Positions 25,764-61,272 of a DNA stretch of 61,500 bases are shown here, one piece after another. This DNA comes from a virus. Location of the stretch: the IMG/VR virus record IMGVR_UViG_3300017740_002729, positions 1 to 61,500 of that record. One strand, written 5' to 3'. The position numbers and the translations under genes are program-made. The notes beneath the pieces were generated by a model, which worked only from the letters and a program-made list of their open reading frames with translations, was not told the origin of the DNA and made no database searches. Numbering within the stretch: position 1 is the stretch's first letter; the number at the start of each line of letters is the position of its first letter.

Positions 25764-25790
25764 TGAGATTCGGCGGAAGTAATAGATTTA
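25734..25790 (+). repeat. Direct repeat spanning a gene junction
   Basis: CGGAAGTAATAGATTTA occurs at 25736-25752 (end of the 602-residue gene) and again at 25774-25790 (start of the 1978-residue gene), coding GSNRF in both. The copies are 38 bp apart and flank the TAATG stop/start junction. Confidence 0.8.
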
Positions 25791-42397: not shown

Positions 42398-43227
42398 AAA
42401 TAGGAATAATAGGACAGGGATTTGTTGGTAATGCGATTTACCAAAAGTTTAAAAACTACTTTGATGTATTAACTTATGATTTAGATAAATCAAAGTGTAA
42501 TTCTACATTTGGTGATTTGATGATGTGTAATACTATATTTTTATGTTTACCCACACCAATGAATATGGATGGAAGTTGTAATGTTGATATTGTACAAAAC
42601 ACATTATCAGAAATAGATTTAATTGCAGATAATCAAGAAGTTAAAAAAACTATAGTAATAAAATCTACGGTATCACCTGGTACAACAAAAAAATGGAACT
42701 CCTTATATCAATCATTAGATATAGTTTTTAATCCAGAGTTTTTAACTGAAGCAAATGCGGTTGATGATTTTAATAATCAAAATAGAATTATATTAGGAGG
42801 ACCAAGACCAGCTACTACAGAATTAAGAAGATTATATTCTAAGGTATTTCCAAAGGCACATATTATAAAAACTGATTCAACTCATGCTGAAATGGTAAAA
42901 TATTTAACTAATTCGTTTTTAGCAACTAAAGTTTCTTTTGCTAATGAAATGTATCAAGTCTGTGAAAAGTTAAATATTGATTACGATAAAGTAGTTGAGT
43001 ATGCAACTTTAGATGATAGGTTAGGAAAATCACATTGGAATGTACCAGGACCAGATGGAGATTTTGGATTCGGAGGACATTGTTTACCAAAAGATTTACA
43101 TGCATTAATATCATTAGCACATGACTTAAATGTACAACCACGAATACTAACAGCAGTTGATTCTAAAAACAATGATGTTAGAACAGATAAAGATTGGAAA
43201 AGAATGAAAGGGAGGGCAGTTATTTAG
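42394..43227 (+). CDS. UDP-glucose/GDP-mannose-type dehydrogenase, short form
   Basis: This 277-residue protein has IGIIGQGFVGNAIYQ (NAD-binding), FLCLPTPM, KSTVSPGTTKKW, FNPEFLTEANAVDDF, AEMVKYLTNSFLATKVSFAN and the catalytic C230 in FGFGGHCLPKD. This is the UDP-glucose 6-dehydrogenase family, which oxidises the C6 hydroxyl to a carboxylate. The usual C-terminal UDP-binding Rossmann domain (bringing the family to about 390-450) is absent. The last coding bases overlap the 3' end of the leftward RHH gene by 8 nt. Confidence 0.87.
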   Translation: MKIGIIGQGFVGNAIYQKFKNYFDVLTYDLDKSKCNSTFGDLMMCNTIFLCLPTPMNMDGSCNVDIVQNTLSEIDLIADNQEVKKTIVIKSTVSPGTTKKWNSLYQSLDIVFNPEFLTEANAVDDFNNQNRIILGGPRPATTELRRLYSKVFPKAHIIKTDSTHAEMVKYLTNSFLATKVSFANEMYQVCEKLNIDYDKVVEYATLDDRLGKSHWNVPGPDGDFGFGGHCLPKDLHALISLAHDLNVQPRILTAVDSKNNDVRTDKDWKRMKGRAVI

Positions 43228-46400: not shown

Positions 46401-49400
46401 TATGACATCCGATACTGGTAGAATTGAAATTCCAATAAACTTTCAAGATGCAGATGGAGTAACGGGTCAAAAAAATGTAGTTTGTTCTGTAACGAGAGTA
46501 AAATCAGCACCACCTGTAATAGTTGTAAATGCTTCACCTGGTGCACAAACTATAGAAGCAACTTCATTTGGTACAGGTTCTGAAATACCAGACCCAATCA
46601 CAATAACAGCATTTGAAGGAACTACAAACGCATTTACATCTATGGTTGCTAGTGGTTCAAATGGAATGACTGGTAGTATAAGTAGTAATGTATTTACATA
46701 TACTACAAGCGCAACCAATATGGGAATTGGGCCAGATAATGCTAATATAACATTTACAATAACCCACACCGATTCAGAAGGAACTGTAGGTACTTCTAAT
46801 GTTATATCATCTGTAAGTAGAGTAAGAAAAGGAAAATCGGCATTCCAAATAATATTAGACCCACAAGTACAAACTGTAGTAAGTTCTTCATCCATTGCGG
46901 CTCCATCTTCATTTACAATTGCATTACAAGAAGGAGCAAACGCTTACACATATAGACATAGTTCATCTCCTGGTTCACCATACCAATTTAGTGTAAATGG
47001 TCTTACAAATGGTACAAACATATCATCAGCTGATGGTTCTTTAGTTACAATATTACCAACAACTCCATCTAATAATAATGGAACAAAGACAACAGTCTTA
47101 CTAAACATTATGGATGGTGAAGGTCAAACTTTTGTAGACCAAAAAGTTACACATATTGTTAACGTTAGTGGAGTAGGACCTGCTGGGGCACAAGGACCAC
47201 AAGGAAATCCGGGAGCACCCGGTTCTTCGGGTACTACCGCAGCTGGTATAGTATTTACAGGTAACTATTCTGCAGCAAAAACATATGTATCATCATCGGC
47301 TAGAATAGATGTTTGTGAATTAACAGATACAACCGCAGGAACAAACTTTTGGAAAGCAATTAGTTCTGGTTCATTAGGACAACCATCTCCATCATCATCA
47401 GATTGGGAAGCATTTGGAGAAGAGTTTGATTCAGTAGCTACAGATATTTTATTCGCTCAAGATGCATACGCTAATAGAACACTTAATGTTGGTACAAGCG
47501 GAAGTACAAAACCAGTCATAGCACTTAATTCAGATTTTGCTAATGATGGTGCTAATCCATTTATTGGAGTAAATGTTTCAGCATATGCAGCTTCTGAAGG
47601 AATGTATATGGGATATGATGGAGGAACGCCAAAATTAAGTTTAAAGGGTGGAGTAAGTGATGGATTCTTTACATGGGATGGAAGTAACTTAAATATACAA
47701 GGTTCAATTAATATAACAGGTGGAGCTACCGCTGATACGATATCACAATTAAATACAGCAACTGGTTCTCTATCTTCTGATATAAGTACGGCTGAAACAA
47801 ATGCTACAAATGCGGGACAAGCGGCTGCAGCAAATGCGGTAACAAGTGGTTCAACCGCTGCATCTACCGCCCAATCCAACGCTCAATCTTTTGCAACTAC
47901 GGCAGCAGGAAATGCTGCTACTTCTGCATCGAATGCTCAATCAACCGCAAATACAGCCAATTCAAATGCGAGTACTGCTCTAACTGCGGCTAATGCAGCT
48001 ATCGCTAGTAGTTCTACAGACCCAACAACTGGAAAATTAACTAAACCTTTTACACCAACTGGAGATGGTTTATTTTTAGGACCAGATAATTTAGGTTTCT
48101 ATAGTTCTTCAGATTGGAGAACATATATGTCATCAAGTGGTGATTTTGAATTAGCAGGTACAAGTGGATTCTTACAATGGAATGCTGGTTCATCATCTTT
48201 ACTAATACATGGTAGAGTTAGTGGTTCTCAAATAGAAGGAGGAACATTAGTAGGTTCATCTATTAGCATACCTACCGCAGAATCACCAAAATTCTCAGTT
48301 GATAGTAATGGAAATATGACTTGCCAAGACGCAACCATATCTGGTTCAATTAATGTTGATGATGGGGTTGTGGGATTGTGGCACGTAACTGATTCAGGTT
48401 CAGGTGGATTCTTTCAAAATGCTAGTGGAAAGCTTGGTGGAGGTGAAGCAACAATTATTTTAGACCCAACTACACCTGAGATGTTATTTAAATCTGGCGC
48501 AGCGGGTGGTAATTTTGAAACAAAATTAAGAATCAAACCAGGTGATGAATGGACTTCAACCTCTGGAGGTAATATCTCTATTAACGATATGGATATAGTG
48601 GAAGGTACTCCTTCCAATCCTACATCTGATTCTAGTAATACAAATTACGTTTACAATGAAGTTGCTGAAACTTTAACAGGAACAACATATACAATACCTG
48701 GTGGTACATTTGATTTGGGCTCAATACGAACACCATATTATTTAGAATTGGGAACACCTGGTACTGTTTCTGCTGGTAGTACTGATTATCCAAACTATTC
48801 TCCATCATACGCAAACCAACAACATCCGTTCTTTGGACAAAGTACCATATCTAAAGGATTTTCCGCGAACTTCTATTTGGAAGCAGTGAATCAAGCAGAT
48901 AGCTCAGTTACTACAGTACAATTATATAGTGCATTCGCTTCGGGACAATATGTAACTTCACCTTATTATCAATCCGAATCAACTGGATTTGGATTACAAT
49001 GGGTTTATAATGGTGGTACTACTATTTCTGCAACAAGTAATGGTGAAATAGCTGGTAGCTCTTCGGTAATTAATAACAAATCAATTACCTTAACCGCAGG
49101 TGATTATAAATTTAGATATAAATTAAAAGTTGGAGCAAGAAGTGGTAGAAGGGTTAACACCGATTCTTCAGGAAATCAGACACTTACATACCAAACCCAT
49201 ACCCTTAGTGGATTAAATTATGATTTGGGAAGTTTAACAAACTTTTTTCAAATAATAGTACCAACTAATGTTATTGATTTAACATCTAAAGGATTGCAGG
49301 TATTAAATGATTCCGATACATATGTTCAAATTAATAGATTAGGTAGTGGGTTTGGTTCACAACCAACTCTTGTAAATGTTAAAGGGGGTAAGGTTGCTAT

Positions 49401-50103
49401 TGATGGAGATGATGCTTCAAATTCTGCCGATTTAACGGCAAACTATGCACAATTCCAAACAGGTTCATCTAATATATTTTCAGTAGGTTATAACGGAGCT
49501 CAAACTACAGAAGGAAATCTTAGAGGTAGTTTATATTTGACAGGAGATGTAGACCCTGCTTATTACACAACTGGTAATTCAACTAGAGATATGGGTAATA
49601 CCAGTAGATGGTGGGATGAACTATATGCAGATAACTTCAATAATCAATCTGATATAAAAATTAAAGAAAATATTAGTGGTTCAGAACTTGGTTTAACTTT
49701 TATAAATTCATTAAGACCAGTACAATATAGTTTAAAAGAGAGTACTAAAAAAAGAACTCGATATGGTCTTATTGCTCAAGAAGTTTCAGAATCACTTGGT
49801 CAAATTGGAAAAACAACTGCTGATTTTAAAGGATTAAATACAGGTTCAAGTAAAATTGCTAGTTACGAAAGTAAATTTGAAAAATCAATTTCTGAAATAG
49901 TATTAAGTGGTTCACATTATCATTCTTATGATTCGGAAGGAACTGGTTCGGGTGAAATAACACAAGAATGGGTTGATAATGAAATTAGTTCATCTATATG
50001 GACACTAACCTATACTGAATTTATTGCTCCATTAATTAAATCAGTACAAGAGTTATCGGCAAAGGTAACTGAATTAGAAAACCAAATAAGTGGTTCTGAA
50101 TGA
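43429..50103 (+). CDS. Giant tail fibre with S74 intramolecular chaperone (2224 aa)
   Basis: Several beta domains come first, then three related repeats of about 110 residues starting near residues 921, 1031 and 1142 (pattern 'P..QTI...S.G....PD.I...A.EG'). A collagen-like Gly-X-Y stretch follows at about 1249-1268 (GPAGAQGPQGNPGAPGSSG), then an Ala/Ser/Asn-rich trimeric coil at about 1437-1527 and a long fibre shaft. The C-terminus is a peptidase S74 chaperone: QSDIKIKENI with the candidate catalytic Ser near residue 2074, then LRPVQYSLKE and RYGLIAQEVSE. S74 domains trimerise the fibre and cut themselves off. A second ATG at 43435 is an alternative start. It is the host-recognition candidate. 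Confidence 0.9.
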   Translation: MCMGIIKKYGTLHKLKNKQPFILDRNPASDYFNITEFPETFGGGKNGFLIEGSPLLKPSTKLKIDITDVDGNAIYFEPATSNGKTFYDGTSAVVSVWVYDDTPIGIGEITIMGELTHFIDERGVKRPVPEKWEDTYNVKWTRRFKVNSGLPNKEKVRFFKKPVVTIDEIVKQVYIKEIPSITQTGSVDGFAGTPEEGQDLSTWTAGTFYKIKLDTDNPSQPGFSQSMDETIISIPSLGYNPTIKEVVTPTDLLVDVPFTQKGLVSNFQDAPYSVTFEATEDQVLGETSLTGSFADIKITNLKTFTGDVARVKIFRKSRNEVGDFQFVQETKLESAELLRNVTNTSDTIIEYGNLNSFNVANFFVSHSTGVQLNNDKLINSMFLESDGLIHTSESIDFVSGSEYTLSYRVRKNGFSETDKLYFSISGSSTSQSIDIVSASVANEFGSNGYNQSKKITKNFISTISGSANLNIQADNPTANEFHIANLSLKSAEQTSFSPDEFNTIIDIPRKGVAEQFDFKFEFYDINNNFIPITVTSTKNFTGGNTSEISKLTKFLNFESNKTAFRFTTGSFGSPENQSLGFKTQFNLLTGSVTYLSSAFDTEGNYIVPSAYTQSGAHTYPGALTNTSINGATLTIASFSGSRHNEQYGSGGGESTIVVGSITYTASMEGGEHEEFETVYRFEDGDSAAAIIATANQSNFVYRASTLNPDPTSQTILINVARKNLGGPNKPIEINSASAEGTPPPLTEVTDSNGIKTLSLGVDAYPFTEGTTTYSFTSSDDFNIDYSDSVTISPVKIFGGVSVTLTNENASFEATPVGTVAAGDFAASSGSIQLKVGNEDITFDDDNDSSTANNTFALIGVTGSGCTPNFNNPAINEYGITAMSQDSASLELQIRYKDGSGDTTDFSKTVTYTKTKQATPNIEVAATPSSQTIAADSKGSGSSVPDSIEVSAVEGGVDRFISIGTPTFSNGLAGSTGGLASKVITFTSNASAMTSDTGRIEIPINFQDADGVTGQKNVVCSVTRVKSAPPVIVVNASPGAQTIEATSFGTGSEIPDPITITAFEGTTNAFTSMVASGSNGMTGSISSNVFTYTTSATNMGIGPDNANITFTITHTDSEGTVGTSNVISSVSRVRKGKSAFQIILDPQVQTVVSSSSIAAPSSFTIALQEGANAYTYRHSSSPGSPYQFSVNGLTNGTNISSADGSLVTILPTTPSNNNGTKTTVLLNIMDGEGQTFVDQKVTHIVNVSGVGPAGAQGPQGNPGAPGSSGTTAAGIVFTGNYSAAKTYVSSSARIDVCELTDTTAGTNFWKAISSGSLGQPSPSSSDWEAFGEEFDSVATDILFAQDAYANRTLNVGTSGSTKPVIALNSDFANDGANPFIGVNVSAYAASEGMYMGYDGGTPKLSLKGGVSDGFFTWDGSNLNIQGSINITGGATADTISQLNTATGSLSSDISTAETNATNAGQAAAANAVTSGSTAASTAQSNAQSFATTAAGNAATSASNAQSTANTANSNASTALTAANAAIASSSTDPTTGKLTKPFTPTGDGLFLGPDNLGFYSSSDWRTYMSSSGDFELAGTSGFLQWNAGSSSLLIHGRVSGSQIEGGTLVGSSISIPTAESPKFSVDSNGNMTCQDATISGSINVDDGVVGLWHVTDSGSGGFFQNASGKLGGGEATIILDPTTPEMLFKSGAAGGNFETKLRIKPGDEWTSTSGGNISINDMDIVEGTPSNPTSDSSNTNYVYNEVAETLTGTTYTIPGGTFDLGSIRTPYYLELGTPGTVSAGSTDYPNYSPSYANQQHPFFGQSTISKGFSANFYLEAVNQADSSVTTVQLYSAFASGQYVTSPYYQSESTGFGLQWVYNGGTTISATSNGEIAGSSSVINNKSITLTAGDYKFRYKLKVGARSGRRVNTDSSGNQTLTYQTHTLSGLNYDLGSLTNFFQIIVPTNVIDLTSKGLQVLNDSDTYVQINRLGSGFGSQPTLVNVKGGKVAIDGDDASNSADLTANYAQFQTGSSNIFSVGYNGAQTTEGNLRGSLYLTGDVDPAYYTTGNSTRDMGNTSRWWDELYADNFNNQSDIKIKENISGSELGLTFINSLRPVQYSLKESTKKRTRYGLIAQEVSESLGQIGKTTADFKGLNTGSSKIASYESKFEKSISEIVLSGSHYHSYDSEGTGSGEITQEWVDNEISSSIWTLTYTEFIAPLIKSVQELSAKVTELENQISGSE

Positions 50104-51083
50104 AATTATTAGTAACAACAGGTTGTGGTAACATAATACAAGGTGGAGCAGATATATGGGTAAATCATTTTATAGATTTAGTTTTTCCTCATATCGGTGA
50201 TTGTTTTATATTAGTAGATGGTAAAAAACCTGTAGGTTGGGATTCTGATACAAAATATATTCATTTTCATAATGATGATAGTGACTTCTCAGATATACTT
50301 TTAGACCAATGCGATGAGATACATTTCTTACACGCTAACTATCACAAAAGAGAACATCTATGGAAACATAAAGATAAATGGGAAAATATATTTGTACATG
50401 CTTATTTACCTGATATGTTAAAGTATGGTGATTCTGTAAAACAATTTAATACAAATGTAGATACCGAAGCAGTTGATGATTTGATGAAGTATTGTAAGAA
50501 AAGAATATGGATTGGATTAACAGATTCACAATTATTTACAGATTATCCTAATAATACTATAACAATTCCAAACTTTTATGAATTTAAAAATAATTTTCTA
50601 CTAGAAAAATTAACAGATTCTAAAATTGGATTTACTTCTCGTATTGAATCTCGTAAAAATGTTCACTATTTAGATAACCATAGGGGGTTTGTTTTAACTG
50701 GGCAATATGATTGGAAAAATATATTACAAACTAATCAATATAATTTTTCAGATATAAAATTTTTTCAATGGGATTCTAAGATATTGGATTTGTTTATGAA
50801 AAAAGATTGGAGTATATCACATTCCTGTCACACTAACGAACCATTTGGATATTCAATCTTTCAAGCCGTTGATTACGGAAAACTTCCGATACTACACTCC
50901 GATTGGGGAGATGTAGATTACAAATATAGAGTATCATCAAAAGAAGAGTTTGATTCTATGGTAGAAATCATATGTAACGATTCTTATGAGGAGCAATTAG
51001 ATAATTGGATGAGATTATCAAATTGGATGATACAATATGATGATAAGTGGGGTTGGGCAAATAAAATCAAAAAACTTTTCTAA
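50100..51083 (+). CDS. GT-B glycosyltransferase (GT4-like)
   Basis: This 327-residue protein has KLLVTTGCGNIIQGGADIWV at the N-terminus, typical of GT-B nucleotide-sugar enzymes. In the C-terminal domain it has IGFTSRIESRKNVHYLDNH, FFQWDSKIL and the donor-binding CHTNEPFGYSIFQAVDYGKL (EPFG..xEA-like motif of GT4). It overlaps the end of the tail fibre gene by 4 nt (ATGA), so it is translated together with the fibre and could glycosylate it. No signal or membrane helix is seen. Confidence 0.85.
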   Translation: MKLLVTTGCGNIIQGGADIWVNHFIDLVFPHIGDCFILVDGKKPVGWDSDTKYIHFHNDDSDFSDILLDQCDEIHFLHANYHKREHLWKHKDKWENIFVHAYLPDMLKYGDSVKQFNTNVDTEAVDDLMKYCKKRIWIGLTDSQLFTDYPNNTITIPNFYEFKNNFLLEKLTDSKIGFTSRIESRKNVHYLDNHRGFVLTGQYDWKNILQTNQYNFSDIKFFQWDSKILDLFMKKDWSISHSCHTNEPFGYSIFQAVDYGKLPILHSDWGDVDYKYRVSSKEEFDSMVEIICNDSYEEQLDNWMRLSNWMIQYDDKWGWANKIKKLF

Positions 51084-51109
51084 TTTTTTTACGTTTTATA
51101 TACTTTTAT

Positions 51110-51120
51110 ATATTTATATA
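51110..51120 (+). promoter_or_regulatory. Candidate late promoter element ATATTTATATA
   Basis: An exact copy, 21 nt before the ATG at 51142, in the only real gap of this operon. Confidence 0.55.
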
Positions 51121-51141
51121 CAACACCATAATCTAAACTTA

Positions 51142-51921
51142 ATGTCTTTACTTAACGTAGGATTAATACAAAAATATATAACGAATAATCAAATCAAAAA
51201 AAGAGATACCAATGGTAAACCTTTTACTGATGTTGAACCTGTTAAATATAGATGGACACATGGAGCTACTGATTCCCATTTGGGAGATGGTATGATTGTG
51301 TATTCTGTTATTCAAATGATGAAAGCAAAGACTTGTGTATGTTTAGGAAGTGGTGGAGGATTTATTCCTCGTATAATGACACAAGCAAGAATAGACTTGC
51401 ATGACCAAAAAATATTCAATGGTCTAAAACAAATGGAGTGGGGTGACTGTGGTACTACTATTTTGGTAGATGCAGATAATGGAGTAGGTGGATATACAGA
51501 TTGGACAGAGAAACGTTCTTTTTTCAGAAAGAATTTTGATTGTAGAATTATCTTAGATACTACCGAAAACGCATTTTATAATTATTTTGTAAAAGAAGAT
51601 ATAAAGATAGATTATCTACATATCGATGCGGGTCACTCGTATGATGATGTTAAAAATGATTTTACTCTTTACTCAAGTATCCTATCGGATTATGGTGTAA
51701 TATCGATTCACGATACAGATGATAGTTTTGAAAAAGACCTCATCGTAACTGAAGATGTAAAAGAAAAAAATCATCATGCTCCATTTGATGGACCTAATAA
51801 ACTCATAAAAGAATTAAAAGATAATAAAGAGTGGGAAGTTTTCAATTTATTCAATAATGGTATATTAAGAGAAAAACCATCTTCAACTGGAATAACATTA
51901 GTACAAAAATGCAGAGTTTAA
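51142..51921 (+). CDS. Class I methyltransferase (Methyltransf_24 / CmcI-like)
   Basis: I chose the ATG at 51142 (259 residues). The longer frame from 51037 would start inside the previous gene and translate the promoter element. Motif I is CVCLGSGGGFIPRIM, then DYLHIDAGHSYDDVKNDF and YGVISIHDTDD. These are the landmarks of the same family as the gene at 10309. It probably methylates a sugar or a glycan precursor in the neighbouring pathway. The stop overlaps the next gene by 13 nt. Confidence 0.75.
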   Translation: MSLLNVGLIQKYITNNQIKKRDTNGKPFTDVEPVKYRWTHGATDSHLGDGMIVYSVIQMMKAKTCVCLGSGGGFIPRIMTQARIDLHDQKIFNGLKQMEWGDCGTTILVDADNGVGGYTDWTEKRSFFRKNFDCRIILDTTENAFYNYFVKEDIKIDYLHIDAGHSYDDVKNDFTLYSSILSDYGVISIHDTDDSFEKDLIVTEDVKEKNHHAPFDGPNKLIKELKDNKEWEVFNLFNNGILREKPSSTGITLVQKCRV

Positions 51922-52763
51922 ATTTAGTTACAGTAGTTGGGCACAACATAACTATGTTACCGCATATGTTACATTACTATAAACATATTGTAGATAATAT
52001 ATTTGTAGTAGTTTATAGACAAAATGAAGATGATGGTATATTAGAAGAAATTGAAAAACTTGGTATAACACCATACAAAGTTGTTACTGAGCCAAAATTT
52101 AATTGGGAAAAAGTAACAGAACTTTACAATGAGGTTAAACTCACCAAACCAAACGATTGGTGGATAGTATCGGATGATGATGAAATACAAATTTATCCTG
52201 AAGATATTAAGGTGATGATATCAAAGTGTGAAGAAAACGGATGGAAGTTTATAACAGGTGGTTTTCTTGATAGAATTGGAGAGGATGGGACTTTTCCACG
52301 CATAAATAACTATACCAATATATGGGAATCTTTTCCATATAGTGGATTTTTTAGATATCCTATGAGTGGAGCTTGTCCAAATAAGGTTTGTGTAATGAAA
52401 GGTGATGTGGAAATCACAACTGGACAACATTATGCGAAAATAGATAGCAACAATGTGTGGGGTGAAGAGGGAGTTAAACATCCTCTTCGATACCCACCCG
52501 GTAGAGGTGAAGGATTTATACAAGTTCATCACTTTAAATGGGATTCAACTGTTTTAGAACGATTAAAAGAAGTTTCGGAAACAGAAAAAGATTACACTTT
52601 TTGGAAAGAATACAAAAAGATGTATAAAGCAATCGAAATTAACGATTGGAAAATAGATATTAATAATCCTATGTTTGGATTAGAAAAGCAAGTTCCTTTT
52701 CAAAATGAACATTGGGATTATCAGTATTGGAATAGATTAACAAAAGGAATAATTAAAATTTAA
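51909..52763 (+). CDS. GT-A glycosyltransferase-like protein
   Basis: This 284-residue protein has LNLVTVVGHNITMLPHMLHY at the start (the GT2/GT92-like first strand), VFVVVYRQNEDDG, the aspartate motif WWIVSDDDEIQIY and a late HHFKWDSTVLERLKEVSE, where the His is a common GT-A metal ligand. It is distantly similar to the gene at 710. The donor and acceptor are unknown. It is in the operon with the methyltransferase upstream. Confidence 0.7.
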   Translation: MQSLNLVTVVGHNITMLPHMLHYYKHIVDNIFVVVYRQNEDDGILEEIEKLGITPYKVVTEPKFNWEKVTELYNEVKLTKPNDWWIVSDDDEIQIYPEDIKVMISKCEENGWKFITGGFLDRIGEDGTFPRINNYTNIWESFPYSGFFRYPMSGACPNKVCVMKGDVEITTGQHYAKIDSNNVWGEEGVKHPLRYPPGRGEGFIQVHHFKWDSTVLERLKEVSETEKDYTFWKEYKKMYKAIEINDWKIDINNPMFGLEKQVPFQNEHWDYQYWNRLTKGIIKI

Positions 52764-52767
52764 AATT

Positions 52768-52974
52768 ATGGCTAAAAAAGCAACAACAGCAACTCCTACC
52801 ACTGGTGTAGATTCACTAATGGAAGAAAGAAAAATCAAAGCGTTAGAAAAAATCGCTAACTCTTTGGATGCTATGACTCTATGGTTCGAAGAAATCGATA
52901 AAGATGAATGGGGACCAAGAATTGAATGGTATCTTTCAATGTGGAAAGAGAAGTATATAGATGACGAAAAATAA
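52768..52974 (+). CDS. Small hypothetical protein (68 aa)
   Basis: A short, Thr/Ala-rich start (MAKKATTATPTTGVDSLMEE) leads to a helix (ALEKIANSLDAMTLWFEEID) and a Trp-rich end (EWGPRIEWYLSMWKEKYIDD). No family is recognised. It lies between two glycosyltransferase genes and overlaps the next by 14 nt. It may be an accessory subunit; this is only from position. Confidence 0.6.
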   Translation: MAKKATTATPTTGVDSLMEERKIKALEKIANSLDAMTLWFEEIDKDEWGPRIEWYLSMWKEKYIDDEK

Positions 52975-54415
52975 AATTGGTATAGTAGTTCCTTACAGAA
53001 ATCGTAGAGAACACCTTAACCATTTTATCCCCACCATAACATCTCATTTAAAGAATCAAAAAATTGATTATGAGGTTATCATAGTTGAACAAGCTGATGA
53101 TAAACCTTTTAATAGAGGAAAGTTACTTAATATAGGTGTAGAAAGGGCTAAAAAATTAAAGTGTAACTACGTTGCTCTGCACGATGTTGATATGTTACCA
53201 CATGAAGATGTGGACTACAGCATTGTTGATAGACCAACTCACCTAGCTACAAAGTTTACATCAGACCATAAGGAAAAAAGAGTAATATTCGATGGATACT
53301 TCGGAGGAGTTACTTTATTTCCTATTATGGATTATTACAAAGTAAACGGATATTCAAATGAGTATTGGGGTTGGGGTTATGAAGATGATGACTTATTATT
53401 TAGATGTAAGGAAAACTTATTCGATTTTAACACTAAACAAACACCTATAAAAACAATCAACTCAGCTGGGTTAGAGTTTAATGGTTGGGATAGTGAAGTA
53501 AAAATACCTATGAAGTTTGGTTTAGATAATTATACTATTTTATTATCATTCGAACCATATGAAATCGATTGTAGGGAAGAGTTAGATATAGATGAGTATT
53601 CAATATTTTGTATACCTGGTTTTGATACTGGTTTTACTTTTAACGCATTTAAACGATATAAATTTGAAACGTTTACTACGGGTAAACAATGTATTAGTTT
53701 AAAATCAACTATTCAAGAGGAAAGAAGAACCACTTTAATGGTTGTAGTAGATTCATATAATAAGTTTATTAAACTATATCAGGACAATGAGTTAATAGAT
53801 GAAGCTGAATTTGAGGGTAGGTTAATGCCTTACCATAAACAAAAGTTTATGTATTTGGGAAAAGCTTTAGAAGAATCTCAGAACAAGCGTAGACCTTTTA
53901 AAGGTATTATAAATCAATTTGCAATATGGAATCACTCATTAGAACCAGGACAAGTTAAATCTGTATATGATAATTTACAATTGGGAGTTACTGAACAATT
54001 TGAAGGATACACAACACCTCATTGTTTAGAGGTAGCATATGATATGAAAGCATCTAATTATCACACTTTATATGATTTGAGTGGTAATGGAAATAACGCT
54101 AAGATTCATCATTGTAATAGAGTAGCAACTCATCATATAGAGGATTTTAAAGAAGTACCAATTCCTTGGAGAAGAGAATCTACTTTTAAATTACTACCTC
54201 ATGCAGATAATGGCTTTTATGAAAATAAATGGACTTATACCGAAACAAGAAAAAATCAACTAAAGTTTTACAATAGAGTTCTAAAAGGTAAAACTAATTG
54301 GAGGAGAGATGGTATAGAAAATTTAAAATATAAAGTGGTTAGTGATAATAAATTGAATTATGCAGGTAAAGATAATACACCTGTAGAAGTAAATTATATA
54401 AGTGTAATAATATGA
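52961..54415 (+). CDS. GT7-type galactosyltransferase fused to LamG domain (copy 1)
   Basis: This 484-residue protein has an N-terminal part (about 1-160) with the beta-1,4-galactosyltransferase/GT7 set: VVPYRNRREHLNHF, KPFNRGKLLNIG, ALHDVDMLPH (DxD-like), GYFGGVTLF and GYSNEYWGWGYEDDDLL. Residues about 170-350 form a LamG/concanavalin-like sandwich (YTILLSFEPYEI, SIFCIPGFDTGFTF, IKLYQDNELIDE, GIINQFAIWNHSL). A further C-terminal domain (about 400-484) has IPWRRESTFKLLPHADNG and WRRDGIENLKYKVV. The same three-part layout recurs at 55046. The LamG part may hold the acceptor glycan. There is no signal peptide, so it acts in the cytoplasm. Confidence 0.85.
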   Translation: MTKNKIGIVVPYRNRREHLNHFIPTITSHLKNQKIDYEVIIVEQADDKPFNRGKLLNIGVERAKKLKCNYVALHDVDMLPHEDVDYSIVDRPTHLATKFTSDHKEKRVIFDGYFGGVTLFPIMDYYKVNGYSNEYWGWGYEDDDLLFRCKENLFDFNTKQTPIKTINSAGLEFNGWDSEVKIPMKFGLDNYTILLSFEPYEIDCREELDIDEYSIFCIPGFDTGFTFNAFKRYKFETFTTGKQCISLKSTIQEERRTTLMVVVDSYNKFIKLYQDNELIDEAEFEGRLMPYHKQKFMYLGKALEESQNKRRPFKGIINQFAIWNHSLEPGQVKSVYDNLQLGVTEQFEGYTTPHCLEVAYDMKASNYHTLYDLSGNGNNAKIHHCNRVATHHIEDFKEVPIPWRRESTFKLLPHADNGFYENKWTYTETRKNQLKFYNRVLKGKTNWRRDGIENLKYKVVSDNKLNYAGKDNTPVEVNYISVII

Positions 54416-54888
54416 AAAATGAAAAACAAATAGTAGGATTTACTGCGGGAAATTTTGATTTAATCCATCCGGGTTACATCTATACATTCGAAGCAGCAAG
54501 AAAACATTGTGATAAGTTTATAGTGTTTCTTCAAAGAGACCCACATGAACATAGAAAATCAAAGTACAAACCAGTAATTCCAATACATGAAAGATATAGA
54601 ACATTGATGGCTATCAAATATATAGATGAAGTTTATGTATATCAAACAGAAGATGAACTTTATGATTTGATTACTTTTTTTAAACCTGATATTAGAATCT
54701 TAGGTGAGGATTACATCGGAAAATCATTTACAGGTGATGACCTACCACCTAAAGTAGTTTATACAACTCGAGCACATGGTTGGTCAACAACTAAGATGAA
54801 GGATATGATTGCTATGCAAACAATCAAACAAAATCCACAAGTGTTAAAAGATTCAAAACACTTTGATAGAAAAATGAATATGGATTAA
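54412..54888 (+). CDS. Cytidylyltransferase-like protein (TagD/RfaE group)
   Basis: This 158-residue protein has VGFTAGNFDLIHPGYIYTFE, where the usual HxGH is HPGY: the second His is replaced by Tyr. RYRTLMAIKYIDEVYVYQ, ILGEDYIGKSF and HGWSTTKMKDMI (the ISSTxIR-like end) follow, so the fold assignment is firm. The family couples CTP or ATP to a polyol or sugar phosphate. The altered histidine may change activity. It overlaps both the GT7-LamG gene before it (ATGA) and lies next to a small gene. Confidence 0.82.
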   Translation: MKNEKQIVGFTAGNFDLIHPGYIYTFEAARKHCDKFIVFLQRDPHEHRKSKYKPVIPIHERYRTLMAIKYIDEVYVYQTEDELYDLITFFKPDIRILGEDYIGKSFTGDDLPPKVVYTTRAHGWSTTKMKDMIAMQTIKQNPQVLKDSKHFDRKMNMD

Positions 54889-54890
54889 CT

Positions 54891-55049
54891 ATGGCACTAA
54901 AAACCAAATGGGATGAGATAGATGAAAAGTTACAATTTATTCATAGAAACTTAGATATATGTTGTCAAGATTTGTGTGAAGGACAAGAATCAAAATATAA
55001 ATTAGAAGAAGTTATGGAATTATTAGTAGATATTAGAGAAGGTAAATGA
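54891..55049 (+). CDS. Small cysteine-containing protein (52 aa)
   Basis: A short frame of 52 residues starts 2 nt after the cytidylyltransferase stop and overlaps the next ATG (ATGA). It reads MALKTKWDEIDEKLQFIHRN, then LDICCQDLCEGQES and a helical acidic end (LEEVMELLVDIREGK). Three cysteines in CC...C could bind a metal. No family is recognised. The overlaps on both sides support it as a true gene. Confidence 0.6.
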   Translation: MALKTKWDEIDEKLQFIHRNLDICCQDLCEGQESKYKLEEVMELLVDIREGK

Positions 55050-56488
55050 AATTAGGAGTTTGTGTACCATATAGAAATAGAGAAGCTCATTTAAAAAGAT
55101 TTGTACCAGAGGTTGGTAAATATCTTGATAAGATGGGTATTGATTATTGTATGTACTTCGGTCATCAATGTGATGATAAATTGTTCAATAGAGGAGCGAT
55201 GAAAAATGTTGCTGCAAAACATGCATTTGAAGATGGTTGTGATTATATAGTTTGGCACGATATTGATATGATACCAGAAGATGGTACAGATTATTCATTT
55301 CCATCCGAAACACCAATACATATAGCAACTCATATATCTCAGATGAATTATGAATTAAAATATCAAGAATACTTTGGAGGAGCCGTTTTATTTTCAAAAG
55401 AACAAGTAGAAAAAACTAATGGATATTCTAATGATTATTGGGATTGGGGTATGGAGGATGATGATTTGTTTTGGAGATGTGTGTTAGAAGGTTATGCAAA
55501 TACAGAATATTTAGAATTAGATAGAATAGAATCATTCGCAAGGTTTAATGGTAAATCCTCATCAATTGAAATACCATCTACAAGAGATACTGCACATCTT
55601 ACAAATAAATCACACACTATATCCGTATTAGTAAGAGCAAATCAGCAAGAGGATAAAGTTCCTATTTGGTTAGTTGGTGATTATGATAGAAGGTTTTGTG
55701 AATATCCAATACTTCGTAGACCAGGTTATGATTATGGATTGAGTTACAATAACTCTAGAGCATATACTGCACTTTTATGGAATCATAAAAAAGAAGCATT
55801 GTATCAATGGATGAAGCGTTATGAAAACGAATGGAGTTGGGTTACCTTATCAGTTGATACATTAGAAAAAACGATTCACTTCTATCTAAATGGGAAAGAG
55901 TCTGATGCAAGACATGGACACGGGACACATTCTCCTCAATCCTACGAAGGTAATTTAAAAAGATATGGTTCAGTACCATACTTAATTGGAACAACCACCT
56001 CCGTTGGAGAAAAAGATGTTAACAAATATTTTAAAGGAGATGTAGCAAAGGTTATGGTTTGGGATAGAAAGTTAGATAGTGGAGAAATAGAAAACTTACA
56101 CAAAGATATTCCATCGGATGGTTTAAAGATGTACTATGAGTTTGAAAATAGCGCAAATAATATAGTTGGTAATGATAATCATGGTAAAGTTTTTAATGTT
56201 GGGTTTGGTAAAGAAAAAATAAAAATACCATATCCACCAATACCACATAGAGTAGCTGGTAGGATGACTTGCTTACCACATAAAGATGAAGGATTGATTA
56301 CAGATGATAAAGGACAGGATAGGTGGGCTAAGGGAGAAACTACCGCAAGAAACGAAAGAAGATATGTTTTAGAAATGCAGCAAGGTACTTGGGATTACAA
56401 ATCAGATGGTATCAAGCAATTGAAATATGAGTTGTTAGATATTGAAGAAATAAACCCCAAGGCAAAACTGATAAATGTTAAACTCTAA
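55046..56488 (+). CDS. GT7-type galactosyltransferase fused to LamG domain (copy 2)
   Basis: This 480-residue protein is a paralogue of the protein at 52961. The GT7 part has CVPYRNREAHLKRF, KLFNRGAMKNVAA, WHDIDMIPED, EYFGGAVLFS and GYSNDYWDWGMEDDDLF. The LamG part (about 190-355) has TISVLVRANQQED, YPILRRPGYDYGLSYNN, IHFYLNGKESDAR and DVAKVMVWDRKLDSG. The shared C-terminal domain has RMTCLPHKDEG and YKSDGIKQLKYELL. The two copies are diverged, which suggests different donor or acceptor specificity. It ends before a late-type element variant. Confidence 0.85.
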   Translation: MKLGVCVPYRNREAHLKRFVPEVGKYLDKMGIDYCMYFGHQCDDKLFNRGAMKNVAAKHAFEDGCDYIVWHDIDMIPEDGTDYSFPSETPIHIATHISQMNYELKYQEYFGGAVLFSKEQVEKTNGYSNDYWDWGMEDDDLFWRCVLEGYANTEYLELDRIESFARFNGKSSSIEIPSTRDTAHLTNKSHTISVLVRANQQEDKVPIWLVGDYDRRFCEYPILRRPGYDYGLSYNNSRAYTALLWNHKKEALYQWMKRYENEWSWVTLSVDTLEKTIHFYLNGKESDARHGHGTHSPQSYEGNLKRYGSVPYLIGTTTSVGEKDVNKYFKGDVAKVMVWDRKLDSGEIENLHKDIPSDGLKMYYEFENSANNIVGNDNHGKVFNVGFGKEKIKIPYPPIPHRVAGRMTCLPHKDEGLITDDKGQDRWAKGETTARNERRYVLEMQQGTWDYKSDGIKQLKYELLDIEEINPKAKLINVKL

Positions 56489-56491
56489 TAT

Positions 56492-56502
56492 ATATTAATA
56501 TA
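56492..56502 (+). promoter_or_regulatory. Late promoter element variant
   Basis: ATATTAATATA, one mismatch, followed by C as at 16190 and 31734; only 10 nt before the ATG at 56513, closer than the other copies. Confidence 0.35.
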
Positions 56503-56512
56503 CGAAAGTAAT

Positions 56513-57934
56513 ATGGCGAAAGAAAAAAATTGGAATCACCACGAAAATAAATATTTTGTACAAACAAAGAATGAATTGGATGCTCAAGGTTGTGGGTTTT
56601 GTTTAGCTAAATGGACACAAGTTACATTACAACTACAAACGGGTCATACACATTCGTGTCATCACCCAAAAACACATAAGATACCTACATCAGAAATCGT
56701 AAGAAATCCATCGGCACTTCATAATACTCGTTTTAAAAAGAAACGTAGAAAGGAAATGTTAGAAGGTGGTAGACCAGCTGAGTGTGATTATTGTTGGAAT
56801 GTTGAAGATAATTCAGACCAGTTTTCTGATAGAATATTTAAATCAAATGAAAGTTGGTCAAAACCTCATATGGATGAAATTAAACAATCCGATTGGAGAG
56901 CAGATTTTAATCCGAGATATGTAGAAGTAGCATTCTCAGCTGCCTGTAACTTTAAGTGTTCATATTGTGGACCTGCTTATTCTACAACTTGGCAAGAAGA
57001 AATTGAACAATATGGAGCATATCCAACCTCAGATAAATTTAATGACCCAGAAAGAGCTATTGAAGAAGATAAAGTTCCATTTAAACAAAGAGACCATAAT
57101 CCGTATGTAGAAGCATTTTGGAGATGGTGGCCAGATTTATATAGAGATTTACATACATTTAGAATTACGGGTGGTGAACCTTTATTATCAAAAGATACAT
57201 GGAAAGTTTTAGATTTTATTATTAAAGAACCAAATCCAAATAAAAACTTACAATTAGCTATTAATTCAAACTTAGGTGTTCCTGATAAACTGATAGATAG
57301 ATTTATAGAGAAGATAAATAAAATATGTGATGAAGATAGGGTTAAGGAATTTATCATATTTACATCAGTTGATACTTGGGGAGACCAAGCTGCATATATT
57401 AGAACTGGAATGGAGTTTAATAGATTTTGGGATAATCTAAATAAAATATTAGAAAAATGCCCAAGAGTAAATGTGACTGTGATGTCAACTTACAATTGTT
57501 TATCTATTCCAAATTATGATAAACTTATTGATGGTATTTATGATTTAAAAAATACATATGGTACAACTGATAGATATTGGGCATCTGCAGTATTTTTAGA
57601 TTCATCATATCTAAGATATCCTTGGCATCAAAGTGTTCAATTACTGCAAGATGAAAAATGGAAAAATATGGTATTAGAACAAGCTAAACTTATGTTCTTT
57701 CAAGGTGTACCTATATTTGACCACAATTATATTGGATACTCAGATATTGAAATTCAAAAAGTAAAAAGAATTTATGATTGGATGAATGCACCAGTTGACC
57801 CAAAACACTTAAAAACATCAATGCAGAATTTTTATAGATATTTTAATGCACACGATGAAAGAAGAGGAACTAACTTTTTGGAAACTTTTCCTGAGTTGGC
57901 TGACTTTCATCAAAAATGTAAATCATTATGTTAA
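56513..57934 (+). CDS. Radical SAM enzyme (twitch/SPASM-like)
   Basis: This 473-residue protein has the CxxxCxxC [4Fe-4S] site at C145, C149 and C152 (AACNFKCSYCGP) and the AdoMet-binding GGEP motif in RITGGEPLLSK. Extra cysteines stand upstream (C27 and C30 in GCGFC, and ECDYCW), suggesting an auxiliary cluster placed N-terminally. The length and WRADFNPRYVEVAFS context match the 'twitch'-type radical SAM proteins of marine phages. The reaction is unknown; the neighbourhood suggests a sugar or glycan modification. It overlaps the next gene by 7 nt. Confidence 0.87.
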   Translation: MAKEKNWNHHENKYFVQTKNELDAQGCGFCLAKWTQVTLQLQTGHTHSCHHPKTHKIPTSEIVRNPSALHNTRFKKKRRKEMLEGGRPAECDYCWNVEDNSDQFSDRIFKSNESWSKPHMDEIKQSDWRADFNPRYVEVAFSAACNFKCSYCGPAYSTTWQEEIEQYGAYPTSDKFNDPERAIEEDKVPFKQRDHNPYVEAFWRWWPDLYRDLHTFRITGGEPLLSKDTWKVLDFIIKEPNPNKNLQLAINSNLGVPDKLIDRFIEKINKICDEDRVKEFIIFTSVDTWGDQAAYIRTGMEFNRFWDNLNKILEKCPRVNVTVMSTYNCLSIPNYDKLIDGIYDLKNTYGTTDRYWASAVFLDSSYLRYPWHQSVQLLQDEKWKNMVLEQAKLMFFQGVPIFDHNYIGYSDIEIQKVKRIYDWMNAPVDPKHLKTSMQNFYRYFNAHDERRGTNFLETFPELADFHQKCKSLC

Positions 57935-58707
57935 AGATACAATACAAAATGCCTTGGTTTATAACCAACAACAATACTTATGGGTTTACTGATAAGAATG
58001 TGTGGGAAGCTATGCAGGGTGATTTTACTTTTTATGTAGAATTTAAAATGAATCCTGAAAATAATCAAAATAACCATACTATATTTTGTAGACCAGGAAT
58101 GCATATGGGTGTTTTTGTAAAAAACCAAGATATGATTACTTGGGATTTTTGGAATAATAATGGTATAAATAATTTCAATGATATTGCATTTTATGTAGGT
58201 AAAGAAAATATTTACAAAAAGTATTTACTAATTGTATCACATACAGTAAAAGATAAATCATTTCAATGTCATTTAAAATGTACAAGTGATGAAAGTATGC
58301 CTGTGGTTTACCAAGAAAAAACTTATGATGGAGTTTTACATGATTATACAGATACTCCTTATAACTTTGGAATAGCTAATTTTGAGCATGATTTGATGGA
58401 TGAACATAAAGCTATATGTGAATATAATTTATATAAAACAGGTTTATTTACAGAAACCTATACAGCACAACAAATATTTGATTTTTTAGAAACAAATAAA
58501 GATTGCAAACGAATTTTAAAATCATCTTTACCCGAAGCAATGTTTTTGGTTAACACAAACGAATTGACTAGATATAAGGCATATGATAATAGTGGTAATT
58601 GTTACAATTTAGAAATTAATGTAGGTTTAATTAAGAAAATATTTAATTATCACGAACACGAAACTATAAACTTAAATCACATTAATAAAGAAAAAGAAAT
58701 AATATGA
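57928..58707 (+). CDS. Stand-alone LamG-like (concanavalin) protein
   Basis: This 259-residue protein has FTFYVEFKMNPENNQNNHTI, FCRPGMHMGVFVKNQDMITW and YNFGIANFEHDL. It looks like the LamG domain of the GT7-LamG proteins (SIFCIPGFDTGFTF; YPILRRPGYDYGL) without the transferase. It may bind the same glycan and work in trans with the radical SAM enzyme it is coupled to. There is no signal peptide. The family call rests on pattern only. Confidence 0.6.
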   Translation: MLKIQYKMPWFITNNNTYGFTDKNVWEAMQGDFTFYVEFKMNPENNQNNHTIFCRPGMHMGVFVKNQDMITWDFWNNNGINNFNDIAFYVGKENIYKKYLLIVSHTVKDKSFQCHLKCTSDESMPVVYQEKTYDGVLHDYTDTPYNFGIANFEHDLMDEHKAICEYNLYKTGLFTETYTAQQIFDFLETNKDCKRILKSSLPEAMFLVNTNELTRYKAYDNSGNCYNLEINVGLIKKIFNYHEHETINLNHINKEKEII

Positions 58708-59090
58708 GTTTAAAGTTATACGAAATACTTTGTCCTGATGGATATGTAAAAAACGGATATGATAAATCAAAATTATCTACTATATTCGCTAACTCAATGA
58801 ATAGTTCTAAAACACCGAATACAGATTTCACACATATAGATAATTCAAAATCAGAAAAGATATCTATCTTTGAGTATGTATCATATCCAAAAGAATCAAT
58901 ATTTGAAATTTATTTAGATGAAAATTGTTCACCAAAACACTTATCACCAGAAACTATAAATTATTTGGAGGCATATAAAAAAACAGGTCAACTAATAAAC
59001 GTTGTAATAGTGGCATCTGATAACTTAAAAGTATCGGATGAAGAAGAAGAGATATTGAATAAAATAACTAATAATTTTACATACAAATGA
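58704..59090 (+). CDS. Hypothetical protein (128 aa)
   Basis: A soluble acidic protein: KLYEILCPDGYVKNGYDKSK, FEIYLDENCSPKHLSPETIN and an acidic end (VSDEEEEILNKITNN). No family is recognised. It overlaps both neighbours (ATGA at each end), so it belongs to the glycan operon between the LamG-like and the SDR gene. Confidence 0.6.
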   Translation: MSLKLYEILCPDGYVKNGYDKSKLSTIFANSMNSSKTPNTDFTHIDNSKSEKISIFEYVSYPKESIFEIYLDENCSPKHLSPETINYLEAYKKTGQLINVVIVASDNLKVSDEEEEILNKITNNFTYK

Positions 59091-60058
59091 AAATATTAAT
59101 AACTGGAGGAGCCGGATATTTAGGTTCAATATTTACAGAACATTTACTAAGTCAAGGTGGAATAACAAAATTAGTAGTATATGATAATATGATGTATAAC
59201 CAAACATCATTGATATCTCATACTTGGAGAAGTAACTTTGAATATGTTTATGGTGATGTTAGAAATAAAAAGTTATTAAGAACGTATGTTGAAGAAGCTG
59301 ATGTAATTATTCCATTAGCGGCTATCGTAGGGTTTCCTGCATGTGATAGAGATAAGGAACTCGCAACAGCCATAAACTATGAGCATGTAAGATTTATATG
59401 TGAATTAGTAAAGAATAAAAATGTAAAGGTTGTTTACCCAAACACTAATAGTGGTTACGGAATAGGAGAGGACGGTATTTGTACCGAAGATAGCCCGTTA
59501 AACCCAATATCACACTATGGTATAACAAAAGTAAATGCAGAAAAAGAAGTTTTATCTATTGGTGGAATATCACTAAGGTTAGCTACTGTGTTTGGGTCAT
59601 CACCAAGAATGAGAATGGATTTATTAGTAAACGAATTTGTGTACAAAGCATTAACTGATAAATACATAACTATATTTGAGAAAGATTTTATCAGAAACTA
59701 TATTCATATCAGAGATGTGGCTTATACATTTAAATTTATGATAGATAGATATAAAGAACATAGTGGTCAAGTGTTTAATGTAGGATTATCTAAAGCAAAT
59801 TTATCAAAAGAACAATTAGTAGAAAAAATAAAAGGATATGTTCCTGATTTTGCAATAACATATTCTGATTATTACTCAGACCCTGATAAAAGAAATTACA
59901 CTGTATCTAATGAAAAATTAGAATCCACTGGGTGGACTCCACAATTTGATTTAGATAGAGGAATACAAGAACTAATTAAAACATATAATATCTTAATTTC
60001 TGATTTAAGTTCAAAATACAGAAATGGATTCCCTTTAAGTTATGGCAATAGGACGTAG
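59087..60058 (+). CDS. NAD-dependent sugar epimerase/dehydratase (extended SDR)
   Basis: This 323-residue protein has LITGGAGYLGSIFTEHL (NAD-binding), YGDVRNKKLL, IPLAAIVGFPACDRD, YPNTNSGYGIG and the catalytic Tyr-Lys in SHYGITKVNAEK. RLATVFGSSPRMRMDL and FIRNYIHIRDVAYTF are substrate-domain motifs. The family includes GalE-like epimerases and 4,6-dehydratases of NDP-sugars. It precedes the RmlC-like gene, with a 17-nt overlap, so both probably work on the same sugar nucleotide. Confidence 0.9.
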   Translation: MKILITGGAGYLGSIFTEHLLSQGGITKLVVYDNMMYNQTSLISHTWRSNFEYVYGDVRNKKLLRTYVEEADVIIPLAAIVGFPACDRDKELATAINYEHVRFICELVKNKNVKVVYPNTNSGYGIGEDGICTEDSPLNPISHYGITKVNAEKEVLSIGGISLRLATVFGSSPRMRMDLLVNEFVYKALTDKYITIFEKDFIRNYIHIRDVAYTFKFMIDRYKEHSGQVFNVGLSKANLSKEQLVEKIKGYVPDFAITYSDYYSDPDKRNYTVSNEKLESTGWTPQFDLDRGIQELIKTYNILISDLSSKYRNGFPLSYGNRT

Positions 60059-60647
60059 TATATATTACAAAGAAAGAAGTTGGAATGATTTCCACTTTTA
60101 TAATTCAGAAACATTATCTGGTGGGGTTAAGATTATACAACCATCGGTATATCACGAACAAAGAGGTGAGATATCAACAACATATCATTCAGATTACTAT
60201 GATAGATTGATACCAGTTCAAGAAAGAGAAAGTGGTGTTCAATTTAAGCATGATAGATATTCAAAATCAGAAGAAGGTGTTTTGAGAGGATTGCATTATG
60301 ATGATAAGACATGGAAACTGGTATCTTGTCTAAATGGAAAGATTTACTTAGTTGTATTAGATGTAAGAGATGGGAATAAGAGTAAAAATCCACAATATGG
60401 AAGTTGGGAAACTTATATACTTTCACCAACAACACAAACACAAGTATTAATTCCACCTGGTTTTGCAAATGGACATTATGTAATGGAAAAAAATTCAATC
60501 TTCCATTATAAGATGGCTTACAAAGGTGAGTTTAATGATGTAGATAAACAACAAACAATAAAATGGAATAGTAAGAAGTTCGATATAGAGTGGCCTTGTA
60601 CTAATCCTATAATTTCTAAAAGAGATGCAAATGGAAAAAATTCTTAA
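60042..60647 (+). CDS. dTDP-4-dehydrorhamnose 3,5-epimerase-like (RmlC family)
   Basis: This 201-residue protein has the RmlC core: HEQRGEISTTYHSDYYD, EGVLRGLHYDDKTWKLV with the conserved RGLHY, KIYLVVLDVRDGNK, PPGFANGHYVME and the ending FDIEWPCTNPIISKRDANG. RmlC double-epimerises dTDP-4-keto-6-deoxyglucose toward dTDP-L-rhamnose. With the RmlB-like gene at 41516, two of the rhamnose steps could be phage-encoded; RmlA and RmlD are not seen, though the SDR at 59087 could replace one. The His base and Tyr acid of RmlC were not confirmed one by one. Confidence 0.87.
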   Translation: MAIGRSIYYKERSWNDFHFYNSETLSGGVKIIQPSVYHEQRGEISTTYHSDYYDRLIPVQERESGVQFKHDRYSKSEEGVLRGLHYDDKTWKLVSCLNGKIYLVVLDVRDGNKSKNPQYGSWETYILSPTTQTQVLIPPGFANGHYVMEKNSIFHYKMAYKGEFNDVDKQQTIKWNSKKFDIEWPCTNPIISKRDANGKNS

Positions 60648-61272
60648 TTTAGATTACCACGAAGATAGGTGGTTGGAGGGAAACTTATCAAAAGAAGATT
60701 TAATAGCTTTTGAAGATGATATTATAAAACATTGGGAGGGTGGAGAAATCAGAGGACCTATTCATCTATCACATGGTAACGAAGAACAACTTATAGAGGT
60801 ATTTAAAAAAATATCTCCAACCGATTGGGTATTCTCAACTTGGAGGTCTCATTACCATGCACTTCTACATGGAGTAGAACCACAAGTTCTTAAACAAAAA
60901 ATATTAGATGGTAAATCAATTACTATTGTAGATAAAGATTCTAATTTTTATTCATCTGCGATTGTAACTGGAATACTACCAGTCGCATTGGGTGTTGCAA
61001 AATCAATGAAGATAAAAAATAGTAAAAATAAAGTTTGGTGTTTTGTTGGTGATATGACTTTTGAAACAGGTATATTTTATGAAGTTTACAAATATGCAAG
61101 AAACTATGATTTACCAATTTATTTTGTTGTGGAGGATAATGGTGTAAGTACAAACACACCAACTGCAGATACTTGGAATGGAATCCAAAGAGATATACCA
61201 AAAGATGTAATTTATTACAAATATGAATCTAAATATCCACATTACGGAACTGGAAAATGGGTAGTATTTTAG
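60625..61272 (+). CDS. Thiamine-diphosphate enzyme, E1-alpha-like, short form
   Basis: This 215-residue protein resembles the N-terminal half of a dehydrogenase E1-alpha or transketolase-like subunit. It has FSTWRSHYHALLHGVEP (the R.H...L..G block), SAIVTGILPVALGVAKSMK and the ThDP site FVGDMTFETGIFYEVYKYA ... VVEDNGVSTNTPT. The canonical GDG-x(24-27)-N is here GDM-x27-N. E1-alpha chains are usually 320-370 residues, so this is a compact or truncated form. It could make or attach a branched sugar or activated aldehyde. An ATG at 60631 is an alternative start. It overlaps the RmlC-like gene by 23 nt. Confidence 0.75.
   Translation: MQMEKILNLDYHEDRWLEGNLSKEDLIAFEDDIIKHWEGGEIRGPIHLSHGNEEQLIEVFKKISPTDWVFSTWRSHYHALLHGVEPQVLKQKILDGKSITIVDKDSNFYSSAIVTGILPVALGVAKSMKIKNSKNKVWCFVGDMTFETGIFYEVYKYARNYDLPIYFVVEDNGVSTNTPTADTWNGIQRDIPKDVIYYKYESKYPHYGTGKWVVF

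Follow-up and report, generated by a model that had tools for sequence, protein, structure and literature searches.

Predicted galactosyltransferases with a LamG domain inside the catalytic fold in an apparently T4-like phage

As part of the IMG/VR virus record IMGVR_UViG_3300017740_002729, the 61.5-kb stretch of DNA analysed here (the window, to whose coordinates all positions refer) encodes two glycosyltransferases of family GT7: protein A (484 amino acids, 52961-54415) and protein B (480 amino acids, 55046-56488), both on the plus strand. As judged from profile alignments and structure models, a LamG domain of about 245 residues interrupts the GT7 catalytic domain of each, between the EDDD helix and the strand that leads to the metal-ligand histidine. 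The window appears to be a piece of the genome of a T4-like phage; it encodes a gp6-type baseplate wedge protein (19465-21516) whose nearest isolated relatives, 37-40% identical, occur in a Microcystis phage and in Flavobacterium phages.

Domains, catalytic residues and fold all place A and B in GT7. Both carry Glyco_transf_7N and Glyco_transf_7C above the Pfam cut-offs (A, E 2e-23 and 3.9e-16; B, E 1.1e-15 and 2.1e-19) together with Laminin_G_3 (PF13385; A, E 4e-6; B, E 3.5e-11), which bears out the pairing of GT7 with LamG that a preliminary description of this DNA had proposed for both proteins. The LamG match of B reaches 43.9 bits; that of A lies at 27.5 bits in the protein scan (cut-off 27.6) and at 29.9 bits in a six-frame scan. 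By sequence and by fold, the best matches of both proteins in the Protein Data Bank (PDB) are animal beta-1,4-galactosyltransferases. AlphaFold models (A: pLDDT 91.5, pTM 0.86, 52 natural homologues as input; B: pLDDT 89.9, pTM 0.82, 38 natural homologues as input) and a two-block profile match agree on a complete GT-A fold that includes the C-terminal segment, and Foldseek relates both models to B4GalT7 and B4GalT1, and the insert to pentraxins and a putative carbohydrate-binding protein of Bacteroides. The insert also matches a pentraxin in profile comparison and has the jellyroll fold of the LamG class; the preliminary description had allowed that this sandwich might prove to be some other known domain, and the matches to PF13385 and to pentraxin folds speak for LamG. 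A C-terminal lectin of ricin type, characteristic of N-acetylgalactosamine (GalNAc) transferases, is absent from A and B in the Pfam scan. The homology between the two proteins spans their entire length (27% identity, E 3e-56), as expected of the two diverged copies described earlier.

The boundaries of the insertion emerge from comparison with GT7 enzymes that lack it. The reference set comprised 26 GT7-like places from bacterial and archaeal genomes, 18 of them plain, with a core of about 190-240 residues; a profile of these 18 matches each phage protein in two collinear blocks (A, residues 4-154, E 4.3e-63, and 403-466; B, residues 2-153 and 401-470). The C-terminal pieces alone also match this profile (E 7.5e-10 and 1.7e-7, calculated for one sequence), but neither LamG piece does so on its own. 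In a joint alignment the plain enzymes reach residues 157-159 of A and resume at 404/405 with no residue in between, the gap being present in all 17 uninserted enzymes aligned. B4GalT structures align first with residues 1-155 of A and B, and the A family profile matches B4GalT1 again at 235-283 (profile 424-473), collinearly and as far as the profile extends, so that B4GalT1 is covered up to its last residues. Because the C-terminal segment forms the latter half of the GT7 fold, the LamG domain is an insertion within the catalytic domain, and the layout is GT7 first half, LamG, GT7 second half, rather than a chain of three domains. The preliminary description had read the same proteins as three parts in a row, ending in a shared C-terminal domain with LPH..(D/E)G and DGI..LKY motifs: its GT7 and LamG parts stand and the motifs are present and conserved, but a separate third domain had to be given up, as the segment matches uninserted GT7 enzymes and the end of B4GalT1.

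In nucleotide terms, the first GT7 part of A (residues 1-158, with the motifs FNR, HDVD, YFGG and GWGYEDDD) occupies 52961-53434, the inserted LamG/pentraxin-like domain (about residues 159-403) 53435-54169, and the second GT7 part (residues 404-484) 54170-54412, with metal-ligand His414 at 54200-54202. The corresponding parts of B, delimited with the same profile and alignment, lie at 55046-55504 (residues 1-153), 55505-56242 (about residues 154-399) and 56243-56485 (residues 400-480, His412 at 56279-56281). In B the insert follows closely on the EDDD helix (137-147), and just beyond its end comes the strand (406-409) leading to His412. The LPH histidine aligns with H343 of human B4GalT1, which is a metal ligand of an enzyme whose lid (residues 338-365) closes over the donor (PMC6198961), and the insert site corresponds to the foot of this mobile lid, where the lid starts. 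By our reading this position is unusual for a GT-A fold, since the known hypervariable regions of that fold lie elsewhere, at beta3-alphaC, at beta6-beta7 and after beta8 (PMC7185993).

Residue conservation was examined in 53 representatives of A, 51 of B and the 27 remaining, less similar copies. The FNR motif, the DxD motif, the tryptophan of the Trp loop, the ED motif and the C-terminal histidine show no variation among the A and B representatives, and their invariance in both families indicates that A and B should both be enzymatically active. Also invariant are the equivalents of bovine B4GalT1 R228 and Y289, whose change to K or L moves donor use towards glucose or GalNAc (PMC7185993); the retention of these galactose-selecting residues in both proteins points to the same donor sugar, probably UDP-galactose. 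The acceptor loops differ (YWGWGYEDDD in A, YWDWGMEDDD in B), which suggests that the acceptors differ as well. The preliminary description had taken two copies as a sign of a two-sugar repeat, a proposal that finds no support, given the Gal-type donor residues of both proteins and the presence of three GT7 copies in 14 of the 42 records in which copies were counted (the other 28 have two). The 27 remaining copies are short A-type proteins and a third, upstream paralogue (for example at L044:2386-3873 and L077:2485-3963); FNY replaces FNR in 18 of them and the Trp-loop tryptophan is lost in 11, which suggests that the donor has changed or that the copies are partly decayed.

Relatives of B are encoded in at least 177 IMG/VR stretches and relatives of A in at least 32 (lower bounds set by the search patterns), and the best 80 of the B-relative stretches are nearly all full-length; a fusion confined to a single phage, or an assembly error, is therefore rejected. 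A search of isolated phages returned no GT7 relative at E 1e-3, none of the top 50 BFVD matches is named as a viral model with both parts, none of the top 50 Foldseek matches in the PDB is described as one solved chain with both parts, and no report of the architecture was found in a literature search with limited coverage of subscription journals. These searches agree with the earlier remark that the architecture was not known from characterised phage enzymes; what would be new is the LamG domain inside the GT7 catalytic fold, GT7 itself being a known family.

The site of the insert is shared by all A, B and third-copy families, and in a tree built without the insert region a single change separates inserted from plain enzymes, which is compatible with a single origin of the insertion, the deciding branch having a support of 30. 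The LamG and GT7 parts of each protein diverge together (r 0.84-0.85), giving no sign of domain swapping, and the LamG parts evolve faster (mean identity 0.36-0.51 versus 0.55-0.72 for GT7). Two Fibrobacter-type bacterial genomes carry a GT7-LamG gene beside a GT2 gene, so the design is not strictly viral; a cellular origin was nonetheless rejected, as only these 2 of 168 genomes of that phylum carry it. Both loci (L122:5941-12076 and L119:409-3038, in metagenome-assembled genomes) have the order GT7-LamG then GT2, and L122 also holds an ABC exporter and an HlyD-like protein and could serve the export of a glycosylated peptide. Matches in Flavobacteriales and Pelagibacterales bins, which contain the same cassette as the phage stretches, are probably phage contigs.

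This cassette, whose composition was counted at the best 80 B loci of the at least 177 stretches, consists of a methyltransferase, a GT2, two to three GT7-LamG genes, a radical SAM gene and a stand-alone LamG gene. In the window it forms part of a run of 13 genes on a single strand (43429-61272), in which neighbours mostly overlap by 4-47 bases and gaps occur only before A (197 bases), before B (157 bases) and after B (24 bases). A, B and the gene for a Twitch-domain radical SAM protein (56513-57934; NF033640, 348 bits, cut-off 170) are each present at 80/80 loci, a GT2-like glycosyltransferase (51909-52763; PF13704, E 7.5e-4, below cut-off) at 76/80 and a Methyltransf_24-type methyltransferase (51037-51921; PF13578, E 8.5e-9) at 75/80. 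Less regular are a possible GT-B glycosyltransferase (50100-51083; weak PF00534 match, E 0.16; 48/80) and a cytidylyltransferase-like protein between A and B (54412-54888; PF01467, E 1.1e-13; 21/80). An open reading frame homologous to the LamG insert is found at 74/80 loci and in the window encodes a protein of 259 residues (57928-58707). The preliminary description had called it a LamG-only protein: direct Pfam searches give no LamG match, and the claim holds in the form of a full-length homologue of the insert, found by profile comparison (hhalign probability 99.7, E 7.5e-26 against the A insert; 99.1, E 1.1e-18 against the B insert; 0.1 for a GT7 control). No stretch of any cassette protein is sufficiently hydrophobic to form a membrane helix, in support of the cytoplasmic location assumed earlier, and no flippase or lipid-carrier enzyme was found in the cassette.

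The gene run starts with a large tail-fibre protein with an S74 chaperone domain (43429-50103; PF13884, E 1.1e-9), a candidate acceptor. Among the 42 records, 33 have an S74 domain, and in 30 of these 33 an S74 reading frame precedes the first GT7 copy by 3.2-10.4 kb on the same strand; random placement would give 2.6 such records (5.0 with strands kept) and at most 12 in any of 5000 trials, a control that ignores relatedness, the records being related and hence not 30 independent events. Serine and threonine make up 24% of the fibre, versus 10-16% in the other phage proteins tested. The fibre also contains a short collagen-like Gly-X-Y stretch (GPAGAQGPQGNPGAPG).

By combining the insertion, the intact catalytic residues, the conserved cassette and the fibre linkage, we tentatively favour, as a possible though by no means secure explanation, that A and B work as soluble galactosyltransferases and that the lectin-like insert chooses the acceptor, most likely the S74 fibre of the phage itself. 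Both would be metal-dependent, inverting GT7 enzymes produced in the host cytoplasm, with the pentraxin-like LamG insert probably acting as an acceptor-selecting lectin or exosite: it would grip an already modified stretch of the acceptor such that neighbouring sites are galactosylated, as with the lectin domain of GalNAc-transferases. Contact between the LamG part and the glycan or acceptor is a reasonable idea, and one sharpened by its site next to the active site. A and B would probably use UDP-galactose as common donor and act on different acceptors or in successive steps, and the fibre heading the gene run, most likely the acceptor, would receive further decoration from the cassette's GT2, methyltransferase and radical SAM proteins. 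Several points weigh against this explanation: the sugar binding and activity of A and B are predictions; LamG and pentraxin folds are not confined to sugars and may instead bind proteins or calcium, or do no more than self-associate; the neighbouring sugar-nucleotide genes would fit host surface glycans equally well; and the position behind the fibre gene might simply reflect synteny that related T4-like phages have inherited, or a region where host-interaction genes accumulate. Doubtful, but worth stating, is a still broader proposal, namely a widespread, phage-encoded cytoplasmic system dedicated to glycosylation of the tail fibre. Its galactosyltransferases, interrupted by a lectin at the hinge of the lid, would recognise their product as they extend it, and together with the GT2, methyltransferase, radical SAM protein and unattached lectin copy they would assemble a decorated glycan on the fibre that binds the receptor. 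If true, a GT-A enzyme with a lectin-like domain interrupting its fold beside the active site would be a natural design for acceptor-guided transfer. To our knowledge the glycosylation of phage receptor-binding proteins has rarely been documented, and the conserved place of the cassette behind the fibre gene opens it to direct tests across a large group of uncultured T4-like phages.

Among known systems, the animal GT7 enzymes B4GalT1 and B4GalT7 share with A and B the fold, FNR, DxD, the Trp loop, ED and the metal-ligand histidine; by contrast, A and B lack the membrane anchor and accommodate a whole inserted LamG domain after the EDDD helix and ahead of the metal-ligand strand. Accessory domains are also known from the plant hydroxyproline galactosyltransferases GALT2 and GALT5 and from MGAT4A, but these are of another fold family or at another position, not a LamG inside a GT7 fold. 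GALT2 and GALT5 carry a galectin domain and MGAT4A a lectin domain, and like A and B they join a galactosyl- or N-acetylglucosaminyltransferase to an accessory domain of lectin fold (PMC4431829, PMC9296478). The closest working parallels are the GalNAc-transferases (GT27) and PGAP4. The former, placed in one clade with GT7 (PMC7185993), work in a comparable manner in that a GT-A catalytic domain is combined with a lectin domain, which steers acceptor choice and the glycosylation of partly glycosylated peptides (PMC4432651); unlike A and B, they are a retaining family and their lectin, a beta-trefoil, sits at the C-terminus and is joined by a flexible linker. In PGAP4, the glycosylphosphatidylinositol (GPI)-GalNAc transferase, the GT-A fold is split, as in A and B, by an inserted module thought to position the active site at the acceptor (PMC5785973), but that module is a pair of transmembrane helices. 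By analogy, A and B might also be likened to lactose synthase, in which a second module tunes the acceptor choice of a GT7 enzyme: alpha-lactalbumin alters that of B4GalT1 (PMC6198961), although as a separate protein of lysozyme fold rather than as a module within the chain.

Phage glycosyltransferases are often annotated as modifying host glycans, and the cassette may likewise alter a surface glycan of the host (a lipopolysaccharide or capsule precursor) during infection, leading to superinfection exclusion, with the LamG domain binding the growing saccharide. RmlC-type epimerase, NAD epimerase and UDP-glucose dehydrogenase-like genes nearby are consistent with such a role, which we nevertheless consider unlikely: the cassette has no transmembrane protein, flippase, polymerase or lipid-carrier enzyme, it stands directly behind the fibre gene, and the run also holds a methyltransferase, a radical SAM protein and a free LamG protein. 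It is similarly improbable that the LamG domain binds no sugar and serves assembly instead, joining A, B, the stand-alone LamG protein and perhaps the fibre into a multi-enzyme complex by pentraxin-like LamG-LamG contacts. Pentraxins oligomerise, and the resemblance of the insert to this fold would suit such a complex, as would the constant company of A and B and the free copy of the domain at most loci; the faster evolution of the LamG parts, however, fits changing ligands at least equally well. Jellyroll-domain insertions are frequent among phage proteins, but the reading of the insert as neutral, or as no more than a stabilising addition to an ordinary GT7 enzyme, is very hard to reconcile with a domain that keeps one site in all three families, has invariant positions (17 of 243 columns in B) and is also retained in two bacterial genomes.

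Other genes of the window may be recorded briefly. An epimerase, an RmlC-type epimerase and a thiamine-dependent E1-type protein (59087-61272) form a second conserved block, found within 6 kb at 42-53 of the 80 loci. Upstream of the fibre gene (41516-43227), an NAD epimerase gene stands beside a short UDP-glucose/GDP-mannose dehydrogenase-like reading frame from which the C-terminal domain and a portion of the NAD domain are missing. A NodU/Nol-like carbamoyltransferase is encoded at 14000-15724 (393 bits), and a protein of 1978 residues without a PHROG match (25763-31699) carries a further LamG domain, at 29726-30148.

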